This document shows positions 4,536 through 63,286 of a DNA stretch of 64,000 bases, in pieces; position 1 is the stretch's first letter, and each line of letters starts with the position of its first letter. The notes beneath the pieces were generated by a model. It made no database searches. It was not told where the DNA came from and was given only the letters and a program-made list of their open reading frames with translations. Position numbers and translations under genes: made by a program. The stretch comes from a virus. The stretch lies in IMG/VR virus record IMGVR_UViG_3300048924_000191, positions 64,001 through 128,000 of that record, one strand, 5' to 3'.

Positions 4536-7500
4536 ATGTTCAGTGGCCTTCGATCAAAGTTAGGAATGGTGCGAGTCAGCACCAGTCCAAAGTACGTCAG
4601 CGTGGAAGGGATCGCATCCCACCAACTGCTGCGTGACATGCAACGCGTCTGGGGTTCGAAGGCGCTAGCCAACAACATGTTCAGTTTGATCCGCAGTGGT
4701 GAAGTGAAGTTCTTGCACTTCTTCGCACTGGACTTTCTGTACATCATGGAAACACTCTACGCCGACACCCAGACCCGTCTCCCCAAACGTGTCCTGCGTA
4801 AGGTCATCGACGAACTCAAGGCCAACACCTGGCTGGGTGACATCGATAAGGACGTGAAGTCCATCGTCGACATGAGCGTGGTGGATCACGTCGTCTCCTT
4901 CCCGCTCAAGCCGTTCCAGAAAGCGTTTGCCCAACACTTCGGTGTGATGGTGCCGACCTATCGTCTGCGTGGCTACATGCTCGACGCAGGCCCTGGTACT
5001 GGCAAGACCGTTACCGACCTTGTGGTGGCTGCTGGTCTACATGCTGGCAAGGTAGTGATCATCTCGCCGAAGAACGCCGTGGAGCGTGTGTGGGAAGACA
5101 CTCTCAAGGATATCGTTACGCACAAGCGTCCGTACTGGACCAGTGCGCAGAACGCGCCCCTCACCACCGACTCGCACTACTACGTGGTGCACTACGAAGC
5201 CCTCTCGACGCTGGTCGACTTCATCAAGGCGAATTGGAAGGACTTCAAGAACACGTTCGTTATTCTGGACGAGTCTCACAACTTCAACCGTTTGGCTGCC
5301 GATCGGACTCAGACCCTGATCGAGCTCTGCCAGATGCCGTGCGTGGATTACTGCCTCTGGGCATCGGGGACTCCGATTCTGGCGCTGGGTATCGAGTGTA
5401 TCCCGTTCATGCGTTGTGTCGACACCCTCTTCACTCCAGAAGCAGAAGAACGCTTCCGCAAGATCTACGGTCGCGACGCCAAGCGTGCTAACGACATCCT
5501 GCGTAACCGTATCGGTCACTTGAAGTTCCACGTACCGAAACAGGACGTGGTCGACATTCCCGTGAAGACTCACCAGATCAAGGTGAAGATGCCGGACGGT
5601 GAGAAGTACACGCTGGAGAACATCGGTAACATCCTTCGTAAGTTCATCGATGAGCGCTTGGCGTACTACGATAAGAACTTCAAGCACTACGAGGGACAAT
5701 ACCTCTCGGCTCTGAAGCTGTTCGAAGGACACTTGAGGACAGATGTCGACCGTCGCCAGTACAAAGAGTACCAGGCTGCGATCAAAGTGATCTCTTCGGG
5801 CTTCGATCCGAAGTTGATGAAAGCTGAGGCGATGCTTTGCAACAAGTACGAGCTGAAGACGATTATCCCGCTTCTGCCTAACCACATGAAGCCGGAATTC
5901 AAATCGGCTCGCAGTGTGGTCAAGTACGTCAAACTTAAGGTCATGGGCGAAGCCTTGGGTCGTATCGTTGGCGGTATGCGTTCGAAGTGCCATCTGGACA
6001 TGATTGCGCACATCGACTTCGAACACTACATCGACCGGGCTGAGAAGAAGACGTTGATCTTCACCTCCTACGTCGAGGTGCTGGAAGCAACAGCAGATCT
6101 GCTGTTCCACAAAGGCTACTCGCCTGCCAAGGTCTACGGGGCAACCAACAAGGATCTGGCCGGTATCGTCAAGAAGTTCTACGACGATCCTGATCTGAAC
6201 CCTCTGGCTGCGACCTACCAGTCGTTGTCTACCGCTGTACCGCTCACCGTGGCGACGGACTTGCTGATGTTGAACCAGCCGTTCCGTGAAGCTATCCGTA
6301 CTCAGACAATCGCACGAGCTGCGCGACTGGGTCAGGACTGCACTGTCAACGTGTGGGACTTCCTGCTCGACACTGGTGATAAGCCAAACATCTCCACTCG
6401 CAGTAACGACATCCTTGAATGGTCGGCTGCGATGGTGTCCTCGATCGTTGGCGTGAATAACGTCGACCTCGAAACCCTGACGCTGGAAGCGAAAATGGGT
6501 GAGGACGGGATGTGGGAATGCCTCAGCATGGAAGCCGAAAGCTTTAAGAAGAACTTCATCGACATTCGTGATGAAGAGGACCTGGCCCTTGAATCTGCAG
6601 AGACTGAAATGGAACACATCGACCTGCCGAACTACCTGTATCACGGCTCGGCATTCCGCCAGACGGAACTGAAGCCTGGCTTCCAACACACTGGCGAGCT
6701 GGTCCAGTGGGATAACACCGAAGACAACACTTGGCTGTACGCGTCTGACGACAAAGACAGTGCGGTGATGTTGGGAATCTCCTCGGCGATTGAGAAGAAG
6801 TTCCAGCTCAATCGTTATCAGTGCGATAACAAAACCAAGAAGATGATCATCCACGTCGCCGAACCATTGTCGATCAAAGACATCCACAATCTACATGTCG
6901 TGGTGTACTCGATCAAGGCGGATGCAGCGGACGGCTGGATGGCCAACCACAACCCTGCGAATGGAATCAAAGGCGAGTACAAAACTCAGCGCACCATCAC
7001 GTCCAACATCCTGCGGTGTGAGGATGTGCGGATTGCTGACGCGTTGCGTGGCTGGCATGTGCAGATCGTCGTGCAGGAAGCGTCGATGGAAAGTCTCTCC
7101 ACCATCGTCGCCGGCATCAAGAAAGCATTCGGCATCAAGACTCCCGCTGAGAAGCGTAAGTTCGAACACAACCAGGTCATGCAGAACGACATGCGTCGTA
7201 ACGCAGCGGCGGTGAAGGAGTATCTGAGCAAGTACTTCGGTAACCAATCCTGGCTGGCCAAACAGACCTTCAACGAAGAAGTCTCTACCGGCGGCATGTC
7301 TCCAGCTCTTTCGGTCAACGGGAAGTTCCTGCCGACCTTGAGTGAAGTGACTCACGCCGTTGAGCAGACCAAATCGCTGGTCAAAGAGGCTGACGGCTTG
7401 CTGTCCGGAATGGAACATCAGGTCGAATCGATCCGAGACAAGTACGAAGCCAAGATCAGTCCTGAGATCGACAAGGACAATCACGACGAAGTACAGAAGT

Positions 7501-7970
7501 TGGTTGAAGCTGCAGAGAAGGAATTCGCTGCCGTTAAACCGACTGTCTTTGGTCTTAAAGGTCGAGCCAGTCTGTGTGGTCACGTCATCACGACTGAGAA
7601 GGTGGATGCCCGCTCTCACGAGATCTGGTTGGGTCGCAAGATCATTCCAGCTCGAGCTCCTGAGAAGATCAAAGCGCTGACGTCGGCTGAGATCTTGCAG
7701 GCAGTCAAGATCGTTGAGGACTTGCTCACTTGGGCCGATGGGAAGTGGTACTGGCAGGGTTGGTTGGACTTCTCTGGCGGCGATGACTTCATCAGCAAGC
7801 TGCACGAGTACAACGAGCCTCTGTACATGGACTTCATCGATCTCTGGGATTACCAGACCGGTGATCAAGTGTTCACGTCCAGCTTACCATACCCGGCAGA
7901 AGTGGCCGAGGAAGTCAGTATTGCGTTGCTGCACTGGATGGACCGTTCCATCAAGGGCGATACCGACTAA
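4536..7970 (+). CDS. SNF2-type superfamily 2 helicase with long C-terminal extension
   Basis: 1144 residues; GGGGAG ribosome site 7 bases before ATG. Motifs are in SNF2 order: Walker A GPGTGKT (152-158), DESH box (245-248), Ser-Gly-Thr-Pro (277-280) and a motif VI of the form QTIARAARLGQ (590-600). The family uses ATP to move along or remodel DNA or its protein complexes. From about residue 700 an extra region begins with Tyr-His-Gly-Ser (H703) and continues with Leu-Tyr-Ala-Ser (Y735) and a Glu at 814, a spacing reminiscent of ADP-ribosyltransferase H-Y-E folds; this part is tentative. The last 250 residues are helical and unrecognised. It is one of only three plus-strand genes and converges on the minus-strand unit ending at 8023. 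Confidence 0.9.
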   Translation: MFSGLRSKLGMVRVSTSPKYVSVEGIASHQLLRDMQRVWGSKALANNMFSLIRSGEVKFLHFFALDFLYIMETLYADTQTRLPKRVLRKVIDELKANTWLGDIDKDVKSIVDMSVVDHVVSFPLKPFQKAFAQHFGVMVPTYRLRGYMLDAGPGTGKTVTDLVVAAGLHAGKVVIISPKNAVERVWEDTLKDIVTHKRPYWTSAQNAPLTTDSHYYVVHYEALSTLVDFIKANWKDFKNTFVILDESHNFNRLAADRTQTLIELCQMPCVDYCLWASGTPILALGIECIPFMRCVDTLFTPEAEERFRKIYGRDAKRANDILRNRIGHLKFHVPKQDVVDIPVKTHQIKVKMPDGEKYTLENIGNILRKFIDERLAYYDKNFKHYEGQYLSALKLFEGHLRTDVDRRQYKEYQAAIKVISSGFDPKLMKAEAMLCNKYELKTIIPLLPNHMKPEFKSARSVVKYVKLKVMGEALGRIVGGMRSKCHLDMIAHIDFEHYIDRAEKKTLIFTSYVEVLEATADLLFHKGYSPAKVYGATNKDLAGIVKKFYDDPDLNPLAATYQSLSTAVPLTVATDLLMLNQPFREAIRTQTIARAARLGQDCTVNVWDFLLDTGDKPNISTRSNDILEWSAAMVSSIVGVNNVDLETLTLEAKMGEDGMWECLSMEAESFKKNFIDIRDEEDLALESAETEMEHIDLPNYLYHGSAFRQTELKPGFQHTGELVQWDNTEDNTWLYASDDKDSAVMLGISSAIEKKFQLNRYQCDNKTKKMIIHVAEPLSIKDIHNLHVVVYSIKADAADGWMANHNPANGIKGEYKTQRTITSNILRCEDVRIADALRGWHVQIVVQEASMESLSTIVAGIKKAFGIKTPAEKRKFEHNQVMQNDMRRNAAAVKEYLSKYFGNQSWLAKQTFNEEVSTGGMSPALSVNGKFLPTLSEVTHAVEQTKSLVKEADGLLSGMEHQVESIRDKYEAKISPEIDKDNHDEVQKLVEAAEKEFAAVKPTVFGLKGRASLCGHVITTEKVDARSHEIWLGRKIIPARAPEKIKALTSAEILQAVKIVEDLLTWADGKWYWQGWLDFSGGDDFISKLHEYNEPLYMDFIDLWDYQTGDQVFTSSLPYPAEVAEEVSIALLHWMDRSIKGDTD

Positions 7971-9975: not shown

Positions 9976-10311
9976 TCAGGCGTCTGTTTCTGGCTCAGCT
10001 TGCACGCCGATCACAGCAGCGATGGCGTTGTCGAGTTGGCTGAGAACCAGTTCCAGCTCCGGAAGGAAGGGCTTGAGCAGTGCCTTCTCAGCTTCGGAGA
10101 TGGTCTTGAGCTCGCCTTCGGTGAGCTCGTGCTTCAGGCGGGTCGATACAGTCTTGAGCGTGGTGATACGCTCTTCGACACGTTTGGTCGCCACTTGGGT
10201 ATCATGTTTGAAGCGCTCGTAGGAACGCGTCAGACGGGTACCCAACCACCAGGCGCCACCGACGGCGACGCCAACGTACACAACACCTTTAACGACATTT
10301 GCGACAGACAT
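9976..10311 (-). CDS. One-TM coiled-coil protein, tandem family member
   Basis: 111 residues. Starts Met-Ser-Val-Ala-Asn-Val-Val-Lys, then one TM segment (about 7-24), a basic stretch, and a long helical C-terminal region. The two neighbours to the right start almost identically (MSIANVLK, MSLMNIVK) and share the layout, as does the gene at 37658-37966. These look like tandem duplicates. Likely inner-membrane anchored with a cytoplasmic coil, by the positive-inside rule. Confidence 0.85.
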   Translation of the reverse strand: MSVANVVKGVVYVGVAVGGAWWLGTRLTRSYERFKHDTQVATKRVEERITTLKTVSTRLKHELTEGELKTISEAEKALLKPFLPELELVLSQLDNAIAAVIGVQAEPETDA

Positions 10312-10325
10312 TTGACTCTCCTTGG

Positions 10326-10646
10326 TTACAGGGTGACGTAGCTTTTGAAACGACGGCCGATTGCCCGGACTTCGTCCAGGAGTTCATTGACCGCAGCAGA
10401 ACTTTCTTCTTGAGCGAGTGCTACACGACCAGCACGTTCGAGGATGATTTGCTCTTCCTCATTCAACGTGTAGTTTGCCAACGCCGCATTAGCGCGGACG
10501 CTGGCGGCAGTGCAGATCAACTCACCACACAGTGCGTTACGCTTTTCCTTCTCCTTTTTATCGGAGATGGCTTTGTTGACGATACAACCTACAACAGCCA
10601 GGCCGACCACAGCACCGGCGAGTTTCAGAACGTTTGCGATGCTCAT
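10326..10646 (-). CDS. One-TM coiled-coil protein, tandem family member
   Basis: 106 residues. Starts Met-Ser-Ile-Ala-Asn-Val-Leu-Lys; TM segment about 8-26, then a Lys/Glu-rich hinge and a helical C-terminal region. Middle member of three adjacent paralogues. A purine-rich ribosome site lies upstream. Function unknown. Confidence 0.85.
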   Translation of the reverse strand: MSIANVLKLAGAVVGLAVVGCIVNKAISDKKEKEKRNALCGELICTAASVRANAALANYTLNEEEQIILERAGRVALAQEESSAAVNELLDEVRAIGRRFKSYVTL

Positions 10647-10657
10647 GGTCTTTCCCC

Positions 10658-10975
10658 TTAAGCTGCTTTGGATTGGTCTTTGAAACGTTGGATTTTGGTT
10701 TGCAGGATATTGATGGCGCTAGTCAGACCTTCCGGCGTTGCTGCGACAGTCAGTGCTGCGAAAGCCCGCACGTCGGTACGGTCTTCTTCTTCCATCTCCT
10801 GCTCGGTGGTCTTGAGTACTTCCATCAGCTCAGCGATGAGGTCGCTGATTTTGTTGATGGATTGTTGGGCTTCTACTGCAGCCTTGCGAGCTTGACCGCG
10901 ACGGTGGACGTAGTAGAAGGTACCGCCGACAACAGCGAGAGAAGCACCCAGTTTGACGATGTTCATTAAGCTCAT
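10658..10975 (-). CDS. One-TM coiled-coil protein, tandem family member
   Basis: 105 residues. Starts Met-Ser-Leu-Met-Asn-Ile-Val-Lys; short TM segment (about 7-23), an Arg/Lys cluster, then an acidic coiled-coil-like region. First gene of its unit: a CCTAGGAGG ribosome site directly upstream and the promoter-like motif at 11026-11040 before it. The trio is therefore probably expressed together from a strong start. Confidence 0.85.
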   Translation of the reverse strand: MSLMNIVKLGASLAVVGGTFYYVHRRGQARKAAVEAQQSINKISDLIAELMEVLKTTEQEMEEEDRTDVRAFAALTVAATPEGLTSAINILQTKIQRFKDQSKAA

Positions 10976-22848: not shown

Positions 22849-23982
22849 TTAACGTCCGCCGAAGCCTGCGCGCTGGCGACCTTTGCGGAATTCGAGGTTC
22901 TCGTGCCAGTTCAGAGCTTCTGCGAGGGTGAACTTGTTGCGACCTTCTGGGAAGACCACCTCGTGTTCGCAGTGCATCATTTCGCGAACCGCGATCGCCT
23001 GCTCCAGATCCAGGTGTTTGAACTCCAGGATGTCGAAGCAACGACCACCACGGGTGAGCGCCTCGTCGACCTTGTGGAGACTTTCCAGGTTGGTCGAGAT
23101 GATGATCTTGGTATCACGAGAAACGATACCGTTTGCCGCGCTGAGCATCGCCTGCATGTTGGAGTTACCCAGATCACGAGCTTCGACCAACTTGTCGGAG
23201 TCTTCGGTAACGAAGATTGCACCAGAACGCAGACCGCGGATGTAGTCAGCCAGAGATGGGTTCAGGAGAACGTCTTCACGGTCAGCCATGTGGGCGTTAT
23301 CGTCAGCGAAGTTTGCGACGTGCAGAAGCTCGGTAATCCAGTTGGACTTGCCGGTGCCTGGCGGACCGATCAGCAGGACGACGTTGGAGTTGGACGCCTT
23401 GAACTCCTGCCAGAAAGCGGCCGGTAATTGACGCGGTTCGAAGTACGGGTACATCTTCTGGATATCGGAGATCGCTTGCCGTGGAGCAATCGGTTCCCAG
23501 CCCGGGATGATACCGCCGTTACCGTTCAGGGTCAGACGGGTCATGACCGGCACTTTATCCGACTTGGCCAGTTCGGCGAATTGACCGGTGACGTAGTCCA
23601 CCAGCTTCTTACCGCCCAGCAGGTCGTAGAACGCTTTGGTGTTCTCGTTCTTGACGTTCACCAGGGCACCGAACACTTCATCGTCAGAAACGATCAGGCG
23701 GCCCATGATGACGCGAACGAAGCGCAGACCTGCGGGCTTGAGGATCTCTTCTTCGAAGATCCGCAAGATGACCGTGTCGTTGTCTTCCGGTTTGATATTC
23801 AGCGGAACGTTGGTCTCCAGCTTCTTCTGCACGCAGTTGATACCACGGCCTGCAAAGAACAGGCGAGATACGTCGTACAGGTTGTCGCCGCGCAGCAGCG
23901 CCAGACGCTCGGAGAAGAAGTGGATCTCTTCCAGCAGTTTCTGGGAGGCTTGTGGTTCACGGAAAATATTCAGATTAGTCAT
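22849..23982 (-). CDS. AAA+ ATPase
   Basis: 377 residues. Walker A Gly-Pro-Pro-Gly-Thr-Gly-Lys-Ser (206-213), Walker B-like Ala-Ile-Phe-Val-Thr-Glu-Asp (255-261), sensor Ile-Ser-Thr-Asn (295-298), and Arg-Gly-Gly-Arg-Cys-Phe-Asp (311-317) as a possible arginine finger. The N-terminal 200 residues form an unrecognised domain. It resembles AAA+ proteins that remodel protein complexes more than DnaC-type loaders. The phage role is unknown. It is the first gene to the left of the RKK microprotein array and may share its transcript. Confidence 0.85.
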   Translation of the reverse strand: MTNLNIFREPQASQKLLEEIHFFSERLALLRGDNLYDVSRLFFAGRGINCVQKKLETNVPLNIKPEDNDTVILRIFEEEILKPAGLRFVRVIMGRLIVSDDEVFGALVNVKNENTKAFYDLLGGKKLVDYVTGQFAELAKSDKVPVMTRLTLNGNGGIIPGWEPIAPRQAISDIQKMYPYFEPRQLPAAFWQEFKASNSNVVLLIGPPGTGKSNWITELLHVANFADDNAHMADREDVLLNPSLADYIRGLRSGAIFVTEDSDKLVEARDLGNSNMQAMLSAANGIVSRDTKIIISTNLESLHKVDEALTRGGRCFDILEFKHLDLEQAIAVREMMHCEHEVVFPEGRNKFTLAEALNWHENLEFRKGRQRAGFGGR

Positions 23983-23991
23983 GCTGCTTCC

Positions 23992-24294
23992 TTACTTACG
24001 GTCTAGTGGTAGTGGTTGAACATTATGTTGCAAAAAGCGATCGGTCTCGTCGTAGTCCGGACCACCCAACTGGTCCTCGAGGTCATGGAACTCAGCGCGA
24101 GTTAACCGAGTACGGCAGGATGAAGCGTTGTCGCGGTACTGTACACGCATACCGCCGGTACGTACCTCTTCGCCGAGACTCTCTCCGTCCTGCACGCGAT
24201 GGGGTATGTCGTGATCGTCTGCTCCCAGGGATGCGCGGATAGATGATGTTGAAGTGCGGTCTTTCTTGCGGTTGGTTAGGTCGGTAAATTTCAT
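23992..24294 (-). CDS. RKK-family small acidic protein (array member 8)
   Basis: 100 residues. Starts Met-Lys-Phe-Thr-Asp-Leu-Thr-Asn-Arg-Lys-Lys (RKK at 9-11), then a hydrophilic, Asp-rich region with little predicted structure. Last member, in transcription order, of eight adjacent small genes with this layout. Followed by the AAA+ gene after 9 bases. No hydrophobic core or catalytic motif is evident. Confidence 0.8.
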   Translation of the reverse strand: MKFTDLTNRKKDRTSTSSIRASLGADDHDIPHRVQDGESLGEEVRTGGMRVQYRDNASSCRTRLTRAEFHDLEDQLGGPDYDETDRFLQHNVQPLPLDRK

Positions 24295-24304
24295 GATCAG
24301 TCGT

Positions 24305-24562
24305 CTACCTACTCACGTAAGGATTGAAGTAACCCGAATTCCACGACTGATGCATGCGGATAGGATCTTCATCGATACTCACCGATCGTTCGGTTCCAGC
24401 TCGTCGAGATTTCGGCGATCTGTAAACAACAGCACCGCCAAACTTAGGATCAGTCCTCGTACCGTCCATATCGACAGGCTCATCTCTGGTGTCATCCGTT
24501 CCCCAGAATTGGCGGTCGTACGACGGGCGGTCGACACACTTCTTACGGTTAATGTCAGACAT
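24305..24562 (-). CDS. RKK-family small protein (array member 7)
   Basis: 85 residues from Met-Ser-Asp-Ile-Asn-Arg-Lys-Lys (RKK at 6-8); GAGG ribosome site and an 8-base overlap with the preceding stop codon. The segment Asp-Met-Asp-Gly-Thr-Arg ... Gly-Gly-Ala-Val-Val-Tyr-Arg recurs in altered form in member 1. Confidence 0.8.
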   Translation of the reverse strand: MSDINRKKCVDRPSYDRQFWGTDDTRDEPVDMDGTRTDPKFGGAVVYRSPKSRRAGTERSVSIDEDPIRMHQSWNSGYFNPYVSR

Positions 24563-24893
24563 CGGCCTCATCCCTCATCCCCGGCCACGGTTCAGGGAAC
24601 TTGCCTGGCGGACATGCTTGTATCGGAATCATCATCTCCTTAGGCATTTCTCGCCAGTTGGTAGCCAAGTCGAAGTGCCCGTCTTCAGCGCAGTGTTCGC
24701 GAAGCTGGTCCTGATCCCATACGCCGCATTCAGGTTCTGCATACTCGTGGTCATCATCGGCGTTGTGCTGATGGGTGTCGGCATGTACGTCGGGATCGTA
24801 AGGAACTTCCCCAACGAATTCCTCAACCACGCAGGACCCACGAAAGACCTGTTGTAACGGCACGCGTTTCTTTCGGAACACACTCCTGTTCAT
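24555..24893 (-). CDS. RKK-family small acidic protein (array member 6)
   Basis: 112 residues. Met-Asn-Arg-Ser-Val-Phe-Arg-Lys-Lys (RKK at 7-9), then Val-Pro-Tyr-Asp-Pro-Asp-Val, a His/Asp-rich stretch, and Asp-Gln-Leu-Arg-Glu shared with member 5 (Asn-Gln-Leu-Arg-Glu). ATGA overlap with the upstream gene. Confidence 0.8.
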   Translation of the reverse strand: MNRSVFRKKRVPLQQVFRGSCVVEEFVGEVPYDPDVHADTHQHNADDDHEYAEPECGVWDQDQLREHCAEDGHFDLATNWREMPKEMMIPIQACPPGKFPEPWPGMRDEADV

Positions 24894-25237
24894 TTGTCCC
24901 TCCCTTCCCCGTCGTGATATCCATACGCGGCGTTGATGTCTGGCTCATCATCACCTATTCCTTCCGGAAACCAGGGAACGTGACTAACTTCCCTGAGCTG
25001 GTTTGAATTGTGCCAACCACCGTCACCATCGCCATCGCGATTGGTATCCATGTCTAGCCCCATGTCGTAGTCGTCAGGGTCTCCAGGACCGAAGTCGTCC
25101 ATTTGGAAAATGCACGAGTCAGGTCTCTCTTCGATGTCGATGACGACAGCCTCATGGAACTCCGGAATATAGCCGGAACCTCTGACGAAAGCTTCCAGCG
25201 TCAACTCCTTCTTGCGGTAGAGCTTATGCCTGGCCAT
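24890..25237 (-). CDS. RKK-family small acidic protein (array member 5)
   Basis: 115 residues from Met-Ala-Arg-His-Lys-Leu-Tyr-Arg-Lys-Lys (RKK at 8-10). Strongly acidic centre with repeated Asp-Gly-Asp. A second ATG three bases upstream is possible. TGATG overlap with the preceding gene; ATGA overlap with the following gene. Confidence 0.8.
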   Translation of the reverse strand: MARHKLYRKKELTLEAFVRGSGYIPEFHEAVVIDIEERPDSCIFQMDDFGPGDPDDYDMGLDMDTNRDGDGDGGWHNSNQLREVSHVPWFPEGIGDDEPDINAAYGYHDGEGRDK

Positions 25238-25500
25238 CATCCACCTCTAGCGAAGTCACACACCAAGTCACGGTTCTGACCGCGGAGTAGACTGGTACCG
25301 TGCCCATAATCGGGATCTCGAACCCGACCGCCGTCACCCTCATGTTGGAACATTCGGCTTTCGACCGAATGTGAGGACATCGTGTGGTTCACCATCTCAG
25401 GATCGAAGGGGAGATCGGTCAACGTCTCGCCGTCATGTAGACCGCGTTCGTTGATAGTGGTTGCAACACCGTCGTATTTCTTTCTTTCAAATCGTGGCAT
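25237..25500 (-). CDS. RKK-family small acidic protein (array member 4)
   Basis: 87 residues. Met-Pro-Arg-Phe-Glu-Arg-Lys-Lys (RKK at 6-8), then Leu-Pro-Phe-Asp-Pro-Glu-Met-Val, a box shared with members 3 and 6, then Gly/Asp/His-rich sequence. Overlaps member 5. Confidence 0.8.
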   Translation of the reverse strand: MPRFERKKYDGVATTINERGLHDGETLTDLPFDPEMVNHTMSSHSVESRMFQHEGDGGRVRDPDYGHGTSLLRGQNRDLVCDFARGG

Positions 25501-25503
25501 GGT

Positions 25504-25758
25504 CTAATCCCAGTTAAGTCCTCGGCACAACCACCGACCTTCGTATTCTTCGGCGAAGTGCTCATCACGGATCACATCTCCATCGACGTCACGGAACACG
25601 GATGTAGAATCGAGGTCGCTGCGGTTATCTACCGTACGGTTAGAAGTCGCGGCGTCACCCACAGTCTCAGGATCGAATGGAGGTTCGCAAGACAACCCTA
25701 AGACCGCTGCGTTTTCGTCGATGAGCTTCTTTCTATCGTACGGGAATTTAGTCGACAT
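25504..25758 (-). CDS. RKK-family small acidic protein (array member 3)
   Basis: 84 residues. Met-Ser-Thr-Lys-Phe-Pro-Tyr-Asp-Arg-Lys-Lys (RKK at 9-11), then Pro-Pro-Phe-Asp-Pro-Glu-Thr-Val and Asp-Val-Asp-Gly-Asp. AAGGAG ribosome site; TGATG overlap with member 2. Confidence 0.8.
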   Translation of the reverse strand: MSTKFPYDRKKLIDENAAVLGLSCEPPFDPETVGDAATSNRTVDNRSDLDSTSVFRDVDGDVIRDEHFAEEYEGRWLCRGLNWD

Positions 25759-25979
25759 CAGCGCTCTCCTTCGTCACCGTCGTCCTGATCGCAATCCGGT
25801 CCTAGTTGTTCGAAGTCACCGTCACCCGGTGGCGTACGGTATTCATCTACAGACATTTCCGTCTCATCGCCGGTTGATTGACTGTCGTCATAAAGGTCAG
25901 CTGGAGAATCGGCAGAGCCGACCCTCCATAGCTGCTCCCGACACCCTGCTTTCTTACGGTTGACGTCAACCACGGTCAT
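25758..25979 (-). CDS. RKK-family small acidic protein (array member 2)
   Basis: 73 residues. Met-Thr-Val-Val-Asp-Val-Asn-Arg-Lys-Lys (RKK at 8-10); the C-terminal half is extremely acidic (Asp-Gln-Asp-Asp-Gly-Asp-Glu-Gly-Glu). GAGGTG ribosome site within the 14-base overlap with member 1. Confidence 0.8.
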   Translation of the reverse strand: MTVVDVNRKKAGCREQLWRVGSADSPADLYDDSQSTGDETEMSVDEYRTPPGDGDFEQLGPDCDQDDGDEGER

Positions 25980-26184
25980 CGAAAATCACCTCGTTACGGT
26001 GCTCCGTTCGAGCAGGTATTTCGTCGTTCTGATCGTCATGGTAAACTTCCGACCGCACGCCGAAATAACCGGTCCCATCCATGTCTATTAACGGGATGTC
26101 GTCCAACCGGTACATTTCGCGACAGGATTTGAACGGACAACTGACCGGCTTAGCGTCCAATAGATCTACTGATCGCCTGGCCAT
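25966..26184 (-). CDS. Small acidic protein at head of RKK array (member 1)
   Basis: 72 residues. It lacks the RKK triplet (Met-Ala-Arg-Arg-Ser-Val instead) but shares Asp-Met-Asp-Gly-Thr with member 7 and the same size, acidity and overlapping arrangement. It has a Cys-Pro-Phe-Lys-Ser-Cys pair. Overlaps the membrane-protein gene upstream by 19 bases. Confidence 0.75.
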   Translation of the reverse strand: MARRSVDLLDAKPVSCPFKSCREMYRLDDIPLIDMDGTGYFGVRSEVYHDDQNDEIPARTEHRNEVIFDDRG

Positions 26185-26666
26185 ACGAGCGCATCCGCTT
26201 TACCAGTGAAGACCAGCCATGCGCACTTGAAGCGCTGACGAAGAGTGGCGTAACCAATACCACGCGCTGGAATAAAGATGTCGCCGTGACGTATGGTGGT
26301 TATTGGTTGGTCACCATCGTGATCACCTTTACGGTTCCAGTGACCGGTGGGGAACTGTACGCTCGACAGATTGACGACGTTCGGATACTTGGCTTCGTAA
26401 CGACGGTCGCAGAGGTATTCGACGACCAGTGCGATTACCAGCAGCCCGCAGTACACTGCCAGACAGCAGACTACCAATGGCCAGAGTGCGTAGCACCAGT
26501 AGCGCTGCTCATCGCTGAGGGAGATCAGGCCGGCATGTCGATTCTGCCATGCGTACGGGCGCTTCTTGTAGTACGCTCGTTCCTTGAGAAACAGGATCAC
26601 GGCACCGAACCCCCAGATTGTAAACATCGCCAACGTGGCGAGGATAGCGTTAGTGCTGAACTCCAT
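26166..26666 (-). CDS. Membrane protein
   Basis: 166 residues. TM segments at about 8-27 and a long hydrophobic stretch at about 56-86 (one or two further TMs), then a soluble C-terminal domain with Arg-His-Gly-Asp-Ile-Phe-Ile-Pro. Function unknown. It sits one base from the phosphatase gene and leads into the RKK array, so all are probably on one transcript. Confidence 0.8.
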   Translation of the reverse strand: MEFSTNAILATLAMFTIWGFGAVILFLKERAYYKKRPYAWQNRHAGLISLSDEQRYWCYALWPLVVCCLAVYCGLLVIALVVEYLCDRRYEAKYPNVVNLSSVQFPTGHWNRKGDHDGDQPITTIRHGDIFIPARGIGYATLRQRFKCAWLVFTGKADALVWPGDQ

Positions 26667-27350
26667 TTAGAAGATCTCCAATGTTTCGAGGTTGATGAGG
26701 GTGAGGTCGCGATCTTCCTTACCGCCTGTGGTGTCGATGTAATACGTATTGCCGAGCACGGTGACTTCGTCAACCGGTATATGCCCAACGATCACCGCAC
26801 GGATATTCTTGACCGGTTCGGTATTTGACAGCGCATAGCGATCTTGAGACCAGAGGCAGCAATGCAACTGCTGTTTGAGTTTCTTCCCCTTGGCGTTGTT
26901 GAGGTTGTCGATCATGTCGTTCCAGTCGAGGTTGACGCACTCGGCGTGAACGATGCCGACTTTCCCTTTGGAGGTCTCGACTTCGATGACGGCGGGGAGT
27001 TCCTTGAACGCTTCGGCATACTCACGGCGTTGCGCTTGGGTCAGGTCGTAGAACCATTCCGTACCGTGTCTACCCCACCGATGTGGCGGGATGTTCGCAT
27101 AGCCGATCAGCAGTTCTTCGTGGTTGCCTTTGATGGCGTTGAACCACAGATACCTCAGATACTGAAGAATCAAGTAACTCTCAGGTCCGCGGTCCACCAG
27201 ATCACCGGCTGGGAAGAGTCTGTCCACTTCAGGATCAAACCCAACCTTGTCCAGCTTGTGGGCTAGACGCGTGAACCAGCCGTGAATGTCCCCCACTCCG
27301 AAGTCACGACCCTTCGTATTACGCTTGAAGGTCCTGACTAACTTGCTCAT
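26667..27350 (-). CDS. PPP-family Ser/Thr protein phosphatase (lambda type)
   Basis: 227 residues, the size of lambda phosphatase. All metal and phosphate-binding motifs are present: GDIHG (20-24), GDLVDRG (49-55), GNHE (75-78), His135 in Val-His-Ala-Glu, and His190 in Val-Gly-His. It would hydrolyse phosphoserine/threonine and possibly other phosphoesters with two metal ions. In phages it may reverse host kinase-based responses; that is inference. Overlaps the upstream gene by one base. Confidence 0.92.
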   Translation of the reverse strand: MSKLVRTFKRNTKGRDFGVGDIHGWFTRLAHKLDKVGFDPEVDRLFPAGDLVDRGPESYLILQYLRYLWFNAIKGNHEELLIGYANIPPHRWGRHGTEWFYDLTQAQRREYAEAFKELPAVIEVETSKGKVGIVHAECVNLDWNDMIDNLNNAKGKKLKQQLHCCLWSQDRYALSNTEPVKNIRAVIVGHIPVDEVTVLGNTYYIDTTGGKEDRDLTLINLETLEIF

Positions 27351-28540: not shown

Positions 28541-28557
28541 AGTAATGTAGGATCATA
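28541..28557 (-). promoter_or_regulatory. Promoter-like motif TATGATCCTACATTACT
   Basis: The minus strand reads TATGATCCTACATTACT about 36 bases before the start at 28505, directly after a terminator hairpin. The TACATTAC core is one base from the TATATTAC early-promoter core reported for phiKZ-type phages. Confidence 0.6.
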
Positions 28558-51685: not shown

Positions 51686-53296
51686 TCAAACGGCGATAGG
51701 GATGTGAATGTCCTTACCTGGGATGTAGCCATAGACCTCGACGCCGTCAGCGGTGATATCGTCGATGTTGGTGAATTGCTGCTTGAAGCGAATGCGTGGA
51801 TCACACTCGACGTCAGAACCGCAGTCCAACATCTCTTCCATCGCCTCCACCTGGTTGGCGTAGACGTGAGCATCCACACCTAGGGTCACCAGCTCGTCGG
51901 CTTCCATGTTTACGACATGGGCAATCGAGTGTAGCAGGTAGGCGTACTGGATGACGTTGAAAACTGCGCCAGCAGGGACGTCATTACTGCGCAGCAACAC
52001 GAAGCCGGAGATCGCCCGAGTCGGCAGGTTGTTGGCCTTGATGTACTCGAGGATCTTTTCCTTGGCTGTTTCTTTGTCGGAGAAGAGATCTTCGTTCAGA
52101 CGACCTTCCGCGTCTCGGTGCGTGTTGAGATACGCTTGGAACAGACCGCGGTTCTCGAGCATACCTTCGAGCTCCGAGAAGTCCATTTCCCACGACACCA
52201 CCTGGAAGTACAGATGGCAGGGCGGGAGAGCTGCTTGCCAGATACGTCCTGGGTTCCAGGCGATCATGAGCATGCGGCGATCGTCAGGGTTGGTTTTGAG
52301 CGCATTGACGATGTTCTGCAGTTGGTCGATCTCGCGGTGCATGACCATACGGCCGCTGTCCCAACCGATACCTTCCTGGAGCACACCAAGGTTTTCGTAA
52401 CCTTGATCGCGGTAAGCTTGCACCAGAGCCAGATCACTGCCATTCACCAGTTGTGTGTCTTGCCACTTCCGCCACTGGACACCGTAGCTACCTTCACCGA
52501 TGGAAGCATCGAGCAATCGGTACTTCGGCACTTCAAGCTGATCGAGGATGTGAACCACCGTCGATACCTTCTCAGGATCGATGAAGTGTTCTTCGAAGTC
52601 TTGCGCCTCCGGGTTCCAGACCGTGACCTTGACCGGGTTCTCCTCCGCAAACATCGCGGCAGCTTCGATGATGCGCGGATAGATGATGTTCCATTTCACG
52701 CCGTTGTTCTTCGATACGCGGGAGAGTCGCTTCTTGAGCGAGACTTCCTCACCACCACCGACCTTGACTTCGGTAGGTACGCCGAATTTGTCCAGGGCGG
52801 TGTGGAGCATTTCGATACCGGTTTGGGTAACGTTGTTCCACTCGAACTGTTCGCCACCCAGCGTGAAGACGAAGTGAGTCGAACCGATCATCGACTTCGA
52901 ACTCTCGTACATGTCGATAAGTGCACGGATGTTGCGGACCTGCTCAGGATCGGTCAGGTAACCAACGCGGTCTTCGAGACGCACTTTCTCGAAGCGTGGG
53001 ACGTCGTACACCGCAGTGCCTGGAATGAACCAGCTGTCCCAGATACCGATCTTGCGATCGCACAGTGGTTTGATCGACGGATTGCCGGTCTTGAACATGT
53101 CCATCTCAACGAGACTGTTCATGTAGCGAACCAGGCGGGTGGACAGGATCGGCATACGCAGGCCGCCGAGAGAGAAGCGCATCATTTGCGCAAACAGCAT
53201 GTGGGTGCCGTGACCGGTACGCGACGACTTCCAGTGGCCGTAGTTCATGACCGCTGCGGTCAGTTGATGCAGTTGCGAATCAGCAGGGTTCAGCAT
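51686..53296 (-). CDS. thyA: Thymidylate synthase (ThyA type) with large insertion
   Basis: 536 residues against about 265-300 usually. Family elements: Arg-Thr-Gly-His-Gly-Thr near residue 26, Trp-Asp-Ser-Trp (86-89), Tyr-Gly-Val-Gln-Trp-Arg (271-276), catalytic Cys360 in Pro-Pro-Cys-His, Arg-Ser-Asn-Asp with Phe-Asn-Val-Ile, and Asp-Ala-His-Val-Tyr near the C-terminus. It methylates dUMP to dTMP with methylene-tetrahydrofolate. Between Trp-89 and Tyr-271 about 180 residues are inserted where most enzymes have a short loop; the insert is unrecognised. It acts with the Dcd, DHFR and Tmk encoded nearby. Confidence 0.92.
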   Translation of the reverse strand: MLNPADSQLHQLTAAVMNYGHWKSSRTGHGTHMLFAQMMRFSLGGLRMPILSTRLVRYMNSLVEMDMFKTGNPSIKPLCDRKIGIWDSWFIPGTAVYDVPRFEKVRLEDRVGYLTDPEQVRNIRALIDMYESSKSMIGSTHFVFTLGGEQFEWNNVTQTGIEMLHTALDKFGVPTEVKVGGGEEVSLKKRLSRVSKNNGVKWNIIYPRIIEAAAMFAEENPVKVTVWNPEAQDFEEHFIDPEKVSTVVHILDQLEVPKYRLLDASIGEGSYGVQWRKWQDTQLVNGSDLALVQAYRDQGYENLGVLQEGIGWDSGRMVMHREIDQLQNIVNALKTNPDDRRMLMIAWNPGRIWQAALPPCHLYFQVVSWEMDFSELEGMLENRGLFQAYLNTHRDAEGRLNEDLFSDKETAKEKILEYIKANNLPTRAISGFVLLRSNDVPAGAVFNVIQYAYLLHSIAHVVNMEADELVTLGVDAHVYANQVEAMEEMLDCGSDVECDPRIRFKQQFTNIDDITADGVEVYGYIPGKDIHIPIAV

Positions 53297-61986: not shown

Positions 61987-62026
61987 ATTCACCGCGAACT
62001 TTCCCATTCTCCAAGGACGTGTGTTC

Positions 62027-63286
62027 ATGAGCATCACGGGCGATCTGTCTCGGCGTTCCATCCAGCAATCTCAACAACTGTACCGCGACAATGCTGTCGC
62101 ACTAGGCAATGATGCTCTTACCGCCGAGATGGCGTCTTTCGAACACCTCCTTGATCGTCACCGCCGTGTGACTGAAGCGATGCGTTCGGTCGAAGACCTG
62201 ACTCGGATGTTCTTCAGTCAGCACCGTCTCGGTGTACCGATCGAACAAGCCAAGATGTACGAGTTCTCGGTCGAGTCGATTATCCGCGCCACTGGCGAGG
62301 AATTCCCACACGACATGCACGAACTCTCTTTCGAGTCGTCTTACGACTACTCGACTGAAGCTGAGTCGAAGGTCGGCAGTTCCCTGAAGAAGGTCGGCGC
62401 TTGGTTGATGGAAATCCTCACCAAGATCGCAGAAGGTCTCAAGGGTATCCTCACCAAGTTCACCACTTCCGTTCAAGGCAACAAACGCAAGCTGGAAGAA
62501 CGTCTTGCTCAGATGCGTGCCAAGGGCAGTAAGAAAGAAGGTGGCGAGAAGGACGACAAGGAACCCAAGCCAAGTACCGAGGCTAAGGGCCGTGCAATCG
62601 AAGTGCCAGACATCAAGATCCTAGGCGGCACTGGCGTACGTGTCGAAAACACCATCGACAAAGCCAACGCCAACACTCGTAAGGGTGGTCAGGATCTGCT
62701 GGGTATTGTGCGGGCATGTGGTGAAGCAGCCAAACGCTTCAATCCTTCGCAACACACCAGCAAGGACGGCCTGGATGACTTCATGAAAGACATCATGTTG
62801 TCGGTAGGGATGAAGACCGATGGCGGTAATGGTCATCGTGAGTTCCTCATCGTAAACGGTACTGGCGTCGAGATCACCTTCAACCGTAAGTCTGACGCAA
62901 CAGTCTCTGCCAAAGCTGGCAAGATCGCTTACGAGAAGAAGTCTGGTGAGATGCCTGGTCTGGATGAGGGCGAAGCCATGAAGTTGCTCGAGCACCTGAT
63001 TGAGTCGTACAACCAGATCGATAGTCTGCGTAAACCGCTCGACACCGTCTCCACCGTCTTTGGTCAATTGGCCAAGTCGATGAACGACGCGTACCGAGCT
63101 ACGCTGAACTCTCTGGCAGGCGCCGATAAGGACGCTGCCGATAAAGCTACTCAATCGAGCCGCGTGTACTCCACTCTGGGCCACGTCATGGCGACTCTGG
63201 GTCAGCTGCCGTCTAACCTGCTGAGTGGCTACCTCCAGGTTCACTACGCCGCCGACAACTACGCCGACAAAGCGTCTCGCGGTTAA
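62027..63286 (+). CDS. Inner-head-type structural protein with protease site
   Basis: 419 residues from Met-Ser-Ile-Thr-Gly, AAGGAC 8 bases upstream (a GTG at 62021 is less likely). Ser-Phe-Glu-Ser (101-104) and Tyr-Asp-Tyr-Ser-Thr-Glu-Ala-Glu (106-113) precede an amphipathic helix. S-T-E fits the S/A/G-X-E site cleaved by prohead proteases of phiKZ-type phages, after E111. The N-terminal 110 residues would be a removed propeptide that targets the protein to the prohead. The mature C-terminal part is helical and Lys-rich. Confidence 0.8.
   Translation: MSITGDLSRRSIQQSQQLYRDNAVALGNDALTAEMASFEHLLDRHRRVTEAMRSVEDLTRMFFSQHRLGVPIEQAKMYEFSVESIIRATGEEFPHDMHELSFESSYDYSTEAESKVGSSLKKVGAWLMEILTKIAEGLKGILTKFTTSVQGNKRKLEERLAQMRAKGSKKEGGEKDDKEPKPSTEAKGRAIEVPDIKILGGTGVRVENTIDKANANTRKGGQDLLGIVRACGEAAKRFNPSQHTSKDGLDDFMKDIMLSVGMKTDGGNGHREFLIVNGTGVEITFNRKSDATVSAKAGKIAYEKKSGEMPGLDEGEAMKLLEHLIESYNQIDSLRKPLDTVSTVFGQLAKSMNDAYRATLNSLAGADKDAADKATQSSRVYSTLGHVMATLGQLPSNLLSGYLQVHYAADNYADKASRG

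Follow-up and report, generated by a model that had tools for sequence, protein, structure and literature searches.

A tandem array of small genes with a common Arg-Lys-Lys tip next to a PHIKZ208-type AAA ATPase gene in a jumbo phage

The array and its genes

The stretch of DNA analysed here, termed the window, comprises 64,000 nucleotides (G000:C1:64001-128000) of a 243,378-base virus record, IMGVR_UViG_3300048924_000191, which by its sequence is a jumbo phage of the phiKZ/chimallivirus clade. Positions 23992-26184 of the window are filled by eight consecutive open reading frames (ORFs) of 72-116 residues, all started by ATG and all on the minus strand, forming a tandem array whose products share a short N-terminal tip with the tripeptide Arg-Lys-Lys (RKK). 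This array was described in a first-pass annotation made from the letters of the window alone; it is real and unusual, and better supported than that annotation could show. In the order of transcription, and for some with the isoelectric point (pI), its members are:

25966-26184, minus strand: array member 1 (first transcribed), 72 residues; degenerate tip LLDAKP; box DMDGT; 19-base overlap with the upstream gene
25758-25979, minus strand: array member 2, 73 residues; tip DVNRKK (codons 25950-25958); pI 4.05
25504-25758, minus strand: array member 3, 84 residues; tip PYDRKK (25726-25734); box PPFDPE
25237-25500, minus strand: array member 4, 87 residues; tip RFERKK (25477-25485); box LPFDPE; pI ~5.7
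24890-25240, minus strand: array member 5, 116 residues; tip KLYRKK (25208-25216); box NQLREV
24555-24893, minus strand: array member 6, 112 residues; tip SVFRKK (24867-24875); boxes VPYDPD and DQLREH
24305-24571, minus strand: array member 7, 88 residues; tip DINRKK (24539-24547); box DMDGT; pI 8.9
23992-24294, minus strand: array member 8, 100 residues; tip LTNRKK (24262-24270); pI ~5.7; stop codon TAA at 23992-23994

Read in coordinate order, the junctions between these genes measure +10, -17, -4, -4, +3, -1 and -14 bases, five of the seven being overlaps (1 to 17 bases). RKK begins at residue 6-9 and spans residues 6-11 in seven of the eight members, and the product of 25966-26184 has LLDAKP in its place. 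Shuffling of residues gave P ~5e-22 for RKK within the first 15 residues in seven of eight members. The short boxes were found as first described, with PFDPE or PYDPD in members 3, 4 and 6, DMDGT in members 1 and 7, and QLRE in members 5 and 6. PFDPE, PYDPD and DMDGT, which stand at a similar spacing from the tip, may be one box of the form P-hydrophobic-D-x. Between members 4 and 3 there is also a direct repeat of 28 nucleotides (25390-25417 and 25660-25687, 79%), likely a trace of duplication among the array members.

All eight members score positive in codon usage, 23992-24294 only weakly at 0.03, whereas the antisense ORFs and the single alternative frame of the sense strand score negative. 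The Arg codon of the tips is CGN or AGA while RKK is nonetheless kept, which argues for selection at the protein level. A cause at the RNA level was considered and rejected for the RKK codons: the first Lys is AAG in 18 of 20 cases, compared with an AAG share of 70% across seven long genes, a weak signal, and the varying Arg codons favour the protein-level explanation. Outside the array, no ORF of the window with an ATG or GTG start has an RKK tip, and the RKK-codon sites in the rest of the record, inspected singly save the last nine at the 3′ end, yielded no convincing second case.

Conserved tip, divergent bodies and in-frame continuity with the ATPase

Downstream, the array runs up to a gene whose tie to it was absent from the first-pass annotation:

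22849-23982, minus strand: PHIKZ208-type AAA ATPase (phrog_14322), 377 residues; near full-length match, E-value 5.4e-94

Relatives of the phage were sought first via the large helicase of the window and then via this ATPase. Two distant relatives, IMGVR_UViG_3300009011_000001 (L122, also read as L112) and IMGVR_UViG_3300042009_000063 (L123), whose ATPases are 50% and 46% identical to that of the window, hold RKK arrays of their own at the corresponding site, immediately upstream of the PHIKZ208-type ATPase gene. Of the eight members of the L122 array, five keep RKK exactly, and the other three have SKK, RRKS or RKN. The L123 array has eight RKK members and one preceding ORF without a tip (eight of nine), some member starts (one GTG, one TTG) having been picked with the tip in view. 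Exact RKK is kept in 20 of 24 members across the three phages, whereas the small hydrophilic genes of more distant phages that bear the ATPase have other tags, so that the first-pass annotation's refuting condition, homologues without the RKK tip, gives a mixed result. In an alignment of the 24 members, conservation exceeds 90% only at the Arg and the first Lys of the tip, which follows the consensus [D/N]-hydrophobic-x-Arg-Lys-Lys and lies within residues 3-15.

The bodies behave differently from the tip. After removal of the tip, the mean pairwise similarity within each of the three arrays was reached by 2, 0 and 1 of 100 composition shuffles; between arrays it was no better than chance, being reached by 24, 59 and 36 of 100. 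Because similarity beats the shuffles inside the arrays and not between them, the bodies look as if duplicated within each lineage, with no remaining relation across lineages, while the tip was kept. A fixed tip on a fast-diverging body, serving as a common docking or targeting tag, was the reading first proposed from the window alone, and it gains support from these comparisons. The bodies had also been called acidic, which holds for five of the eight window members (pI 4.0-4.7, Asp plus Glu 21-29%) but not for member 7, nor for members 4 and 8, nor for the L123 array, whose bodies are neutral to basic (pI 5.6-9.1). Since the L123 bodies are not acidic, acidity, and hence DNA mimicry, is not a property of the family.

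The tie to the ATPase goes beyond synteny. All three RKK arrays end at the ATPase gene. The final RKK module of both L122 and L123 is free of stops and continues in frame through the ATPase, giving ORFs of 451 and 438 residues, respectively, so that the reading frame of this PHIKZ208-type ATPase opens with an RKK module in both. In the window, member 8 ends with its TAA and the ATG of the ATPase follows three codons on, in the same frame. A strong ribosome-binding site, AAGGAG, precedes the ATPase start of L122 after the RKK module, and two products are therefore possible there; no clear ribosome-binding site is seen at the ATPase start of L123.

The ATPase itself has the Walker motifs GPPGTGKS and TEDSDK, shared by all six ATPases of an alignment, and is 43-51% identical to the proteins of Phabio, L122 and L123 and 37% to that of phiKZ. 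It belongs to the classic AAA clade, with BCS1 and proteasomal ATPases as the nearest sequences, and its predicted fold has weak similarity to YjoB and Bcs1 (template modelling (TM) score ~0.33; predicted local distance difference test (pLDDT) 64). phiKZ208 has been found in high-molecular-weight sedimentation fractions (PMC10914614).

Clusters of RKK after ATG were found only in the record of the window, L122 and L123, all with the ATPase, among the matches listed (14 records). Relative G002 has single RKK sites after ATG, with no array at them, and stretches from seven other relatives hold no array. Among 17 relatives searched with the ATPase, a set that did not contain the L123 phage, the only strong match was in the L122 phage; G002 gave a weak partial match and G003, G005, G008 and G010-G012 none. 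The bacterial and archaeal genomes scanned with the ATPase gave no match. A profile of the eight window members against 50 relatives came out empty, a negative that carries no weight because the set contained both array phages later found by synteny. None of the 24 members has a significant match in Pfam or PHROGs, and the longest window member gave no match by tblastn against public phages. AlphaFold2, applied to this 116-residue member with a shallow alignment of eight rows, returned pLDDT 55 and a predicted TM score of 0.18, values that either disorder or insufficient information would explain.

Small hydrophilic genes lie next to the ATPase in all six other phages whose ATPase is 42-50% identical (L122, L123, Phabio, L181, L260 and L261). 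In Phabio (L009) these encode seven small hydrophilic hypothetical proteins, gp299, gp300 and gp302-306, all seven with R-x-E-[N/S] at residues 19-28; its P of 5e-11 is optimistic because the motif was found after looking. The Phabio set resembles the RKK array in that small hydrophilic proteins are encoded near the same ATPase, and differs in its tag, which is another one and lies deeper in the protein, and in the RNA ligase gene between set and ATPase. Just upstream of the ATPase, L181, L260 and L261 each carry small hydrophilic genes, three or four in number, that are orthologous among these phages. Between L181 and L261 the ratio of nonsynonymous to synonymous differences (pN/pS) of these genes is 0.36-0.61, with a nonsynonymous divergence (dN) of 0.37-0.80, against 0.20 and 0.08 for the ATPase; by these values the small genes are translated, are under constraint and evolve ~5-10 times faster than the ATPase. 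Arg-Lys stands at residues 11-12 in two of the four small proteins of L181 and L261, and homology of these genes to the RKK family is plausible. As a separate observation, small proteins encoded at L181:1888-2130 and L261:1857-2310 have a common C-terminal tag like W-x-T-D-[VI]-[QK]-R-G-L, another set with a constant tag and variable bodies.

Expression and possible roles of the array

Early genes of the phiKZ group are marked by an AT-rich motif, which is TATATTAC in phiKZ and TACATTAT in EL (PMC7058600; PMC7598289). A similar motif stands ahead of the genes considered here:

28542-28549, minus strand: TACATTAC, motif resembling an early promoter, 36 bases upstream of the first gene (28505) in a putative operon running into the array

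Exact TATATTAC precedes the small-gene sets of L123 and Phabio, and TACATTAC that of L122, ~28-39 bases ahead of the first ORF. TACATTRY is enriched in the window, with nine occurrences against 3.9 expected (1 of 100 shuffles), and is probably an early promoter of this phage. Its occurrences at 2246, 11027, 28542 and 36670 (minus strand) lie shortly ahead of the first genes of minus-strand gene runs. Early expression of the array is likely, because promoter-like motifs precede the sets of L122, L123 and Phabio as well as the window operon.

The explanation we favour, at a probability of roughly 0.35 and thus tentatively, is a tandem family of accessory proteins, made early and evolving fast, that have a docking tip in common with the ATPase and diverging bodies directed at different host targets. 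In this explanation tandem duplication would have given small proteins, probably disordered and most likely produced early in infection. Each would consist of an unchanging N-terminal docking tip and a hydrophilic body free to diverge, and the array and the adjacent ATPase would act as one functional module. The tip would most likely bind a partner or site that gathers the small proteins and the ATPase together, as suggested by the RKK module that opens the ATPase frame in two relatives, and each body would engage a different target, probably of the host or its defences. We infer both the docking role of the tip and the host-directed function of the bodies. The arrays, with the tip also present on the ATPase of the two relatives, suggest a plug-in set of rapidly evolving proteins that dock by the same tip. 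Phage accessory proteins tend to change too quickly for grouping, and a three-residue tip tied to one ATPase by position and in-frame continuity offers a handle for finding sets of anonymous jumbo-phage proteins; were the tip a docking signal, it would show a phage retargeting one molecular machine with cheap, evolvable parts.

Several points weigh against this explanation. For the RKK arrays all relatives are too distant to yield a ratio of nonsynonymous to synonymous substitution rates (dN/dS), and in L122 the fusion protein may be just one product of two, or no more than read-in. Although the adjacent gene belongs to the PHIKZ208-type family, the ATPases of phiKZ, PS119XW, phiHQ and BRkr (35-37% identity) have no such array beside them. 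Other tags mark the sets of Phabio, L181, L260 and L261, whose kinship with the RKK family is a putative one judged from position and character, and the docking interaction is a predicted one.

Another reading, rather unlikely in our view, regards the small proteins as swappable adaptors or substrates: the tip would bind the N-terminal domain of the ATPase, the bodies would bring clients for unfolding, and the fused module of L122 and L123 would be the covalent form. The strict adjacency and in-frame continuity speak for it, as does the place of the ATPase in the classic AAA clade near BCS1 and proteasomal ATPases, with YjoB and Bcs1 as the structural counterparts. However, that structural match is weak, and the bare surroundings of the phiKZ ATPase do not fit. 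Carried to its full extent, with the array as a cassette of exchangeable adaptors for a phage AAA+ motor onto which a tripeptide tip docks evolvable proteins, one of which can be welded on covalently, the idea becomes somewhat less likely still. If true, the phage would retarget one motor to many host proteins via duplicated and diverged bodies.

To about the same degree we doubt that the array is a weakly constrained by-product, namely duplicated 5′ ends of the ATPase gene, retained for the sake of ATPase expression or translational coupling, with bodies of little function. Such an origin would suit the last module, which in each of the three phages shares the frame of the ATPase, the overlapping stop-start junctions and the lack of body conservation between phages. 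That said, all ORFs stay open at similar length, the kept RKK with varied Arg codons points to selection on the protein, and the orthologous neighbours in L181 and L261 are under purifying selection.

The nearest analogue in design is the set of internal proteins of phage T4 (IPI, IPII and IPIII), with a short shared N-terminal tag, divergent small bodies and an accessory, host-dependent role. Their N-terminal targeting propeptides of 10-19 residues precede divergent bodies that are not essential; IPI is an inhibitor of a restriction enzyme, and IPIII is of help on one host (PMC9026906, PMC9391042). By this model the RKK tip would be a capsid-targeting sequence and the variable proteins would be packaged in the head and ejected into the next host to counter its defences. 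We judge this quite improbable, although the design is the same. T4 tags are propeptides that are cleaved off in the prohead, and their role is in the virion, whereas here a tripeptide tip goes with promoter-like motifs that indicate early expression, and the frame of the ATPase bears the same tip in two relatives. The internal head protein of the window (62021-63286, PF12699) has no RKK near its start, and inspection of the 24-member alignment by eye, with no motif scan run, revealed no common cleavage site after the tip. The RKK array also differs in its eight overlapping genes and in being linked to, and continuous in frame with, the gene of an AAA ATPase, and membership among T4-type internal proteins is not supported because no sequence relation to them was found for the 24 members in Pfam and PHROGs. 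A second T4 parallel is TifA, a small counter-defence gene with tandem segmental amplification (PMC9391042); its copies are identical and recent, whereas the paralogues of the RKK array are old and divergent.

A nuclear-import or localisation tag would suit a nucleus-forming clade, ChmA being clear in the L123 and L181 phages and in Phabio, with a weak candidate in the present record (E-value 7e-4). We hold it to be highly unlikely, because published import needs a folded surface patch and PicA, with no terminal signal found (PMC11087766), and because the tip is confined to the array, being absent from the other proteins of the phage at the sites checked. Least credible are inhibitors whose acidic bodies imitate DNA, which were among the first-pass annotation's ALTERNATIVES and have the five acidic window members in their favour: against them stand member 7, the L123 array and, as far as its shallow alignment allows, an AlphaFold2 model that predicts no ordered fold.

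Neighbouring genes and the phage record

On its upstream side the array is preceded by two genes:

26166-26666, minus strand: preceding gene, outside the RKK family, 166 residues; hydrophobic N-terminus; C-terminal 37 residues match phrog_21988
26667-27350, minus strand: NinI-like phosphatase (annotation), in the same putative operon as the array

The C-terminal 37 residues of the product of 26166-26666, ending GKADALVWPGDQ, match a family of 58 residues and are here the tail of a longer protein. Many jumbo phages (DT01, BcepSauron, Kc263, OBP) encode small proteins with similar tails.

The large helicase of the window (4536-7970) has its nearest homologues in jumbo phages of the phiKZ/chimallivirus clade, e.g., Eowyn, FLC9, LucasX and Noxifer. 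Encoded on the plus strand, this SNF2-type protein has 1144 residues, ~450 more than its homologues in Eowyn, FLC9 and LucasX, and the extension partly matches phrog_13483. With phiKZ ChmA as query the record gave no match; the ChmA profile gave the weak, diverged candidate mentioned above, in a frame of 686 residues outside the window (G000:C1:181028-181201, minus strand). Frames of 674-694 residues in five relatives give comparable matches to the profile, and the 686-residue frame at G000:C1:181028 is possibly a highly diverged nuclear shell protein.

The internal head protein at 62021-63286 (plus strand) is phiKZ-like, its PF12699 match having an E-value of 1.9e-7. At 51686-53296 (minus strand) lies a thymidylate synthase gene of 536 residues, longer than usual, with Pfam matches in three separate stretches. 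Three tandem small proteins encoded at 9976-10975 (minus strand) have weak PHROG matches only and alike hydrophobic starts, MSVANVVKG, MSIANVLKL and MSLMNIVKL, and they are probably a second small paralogous array, one of membrane proteins.

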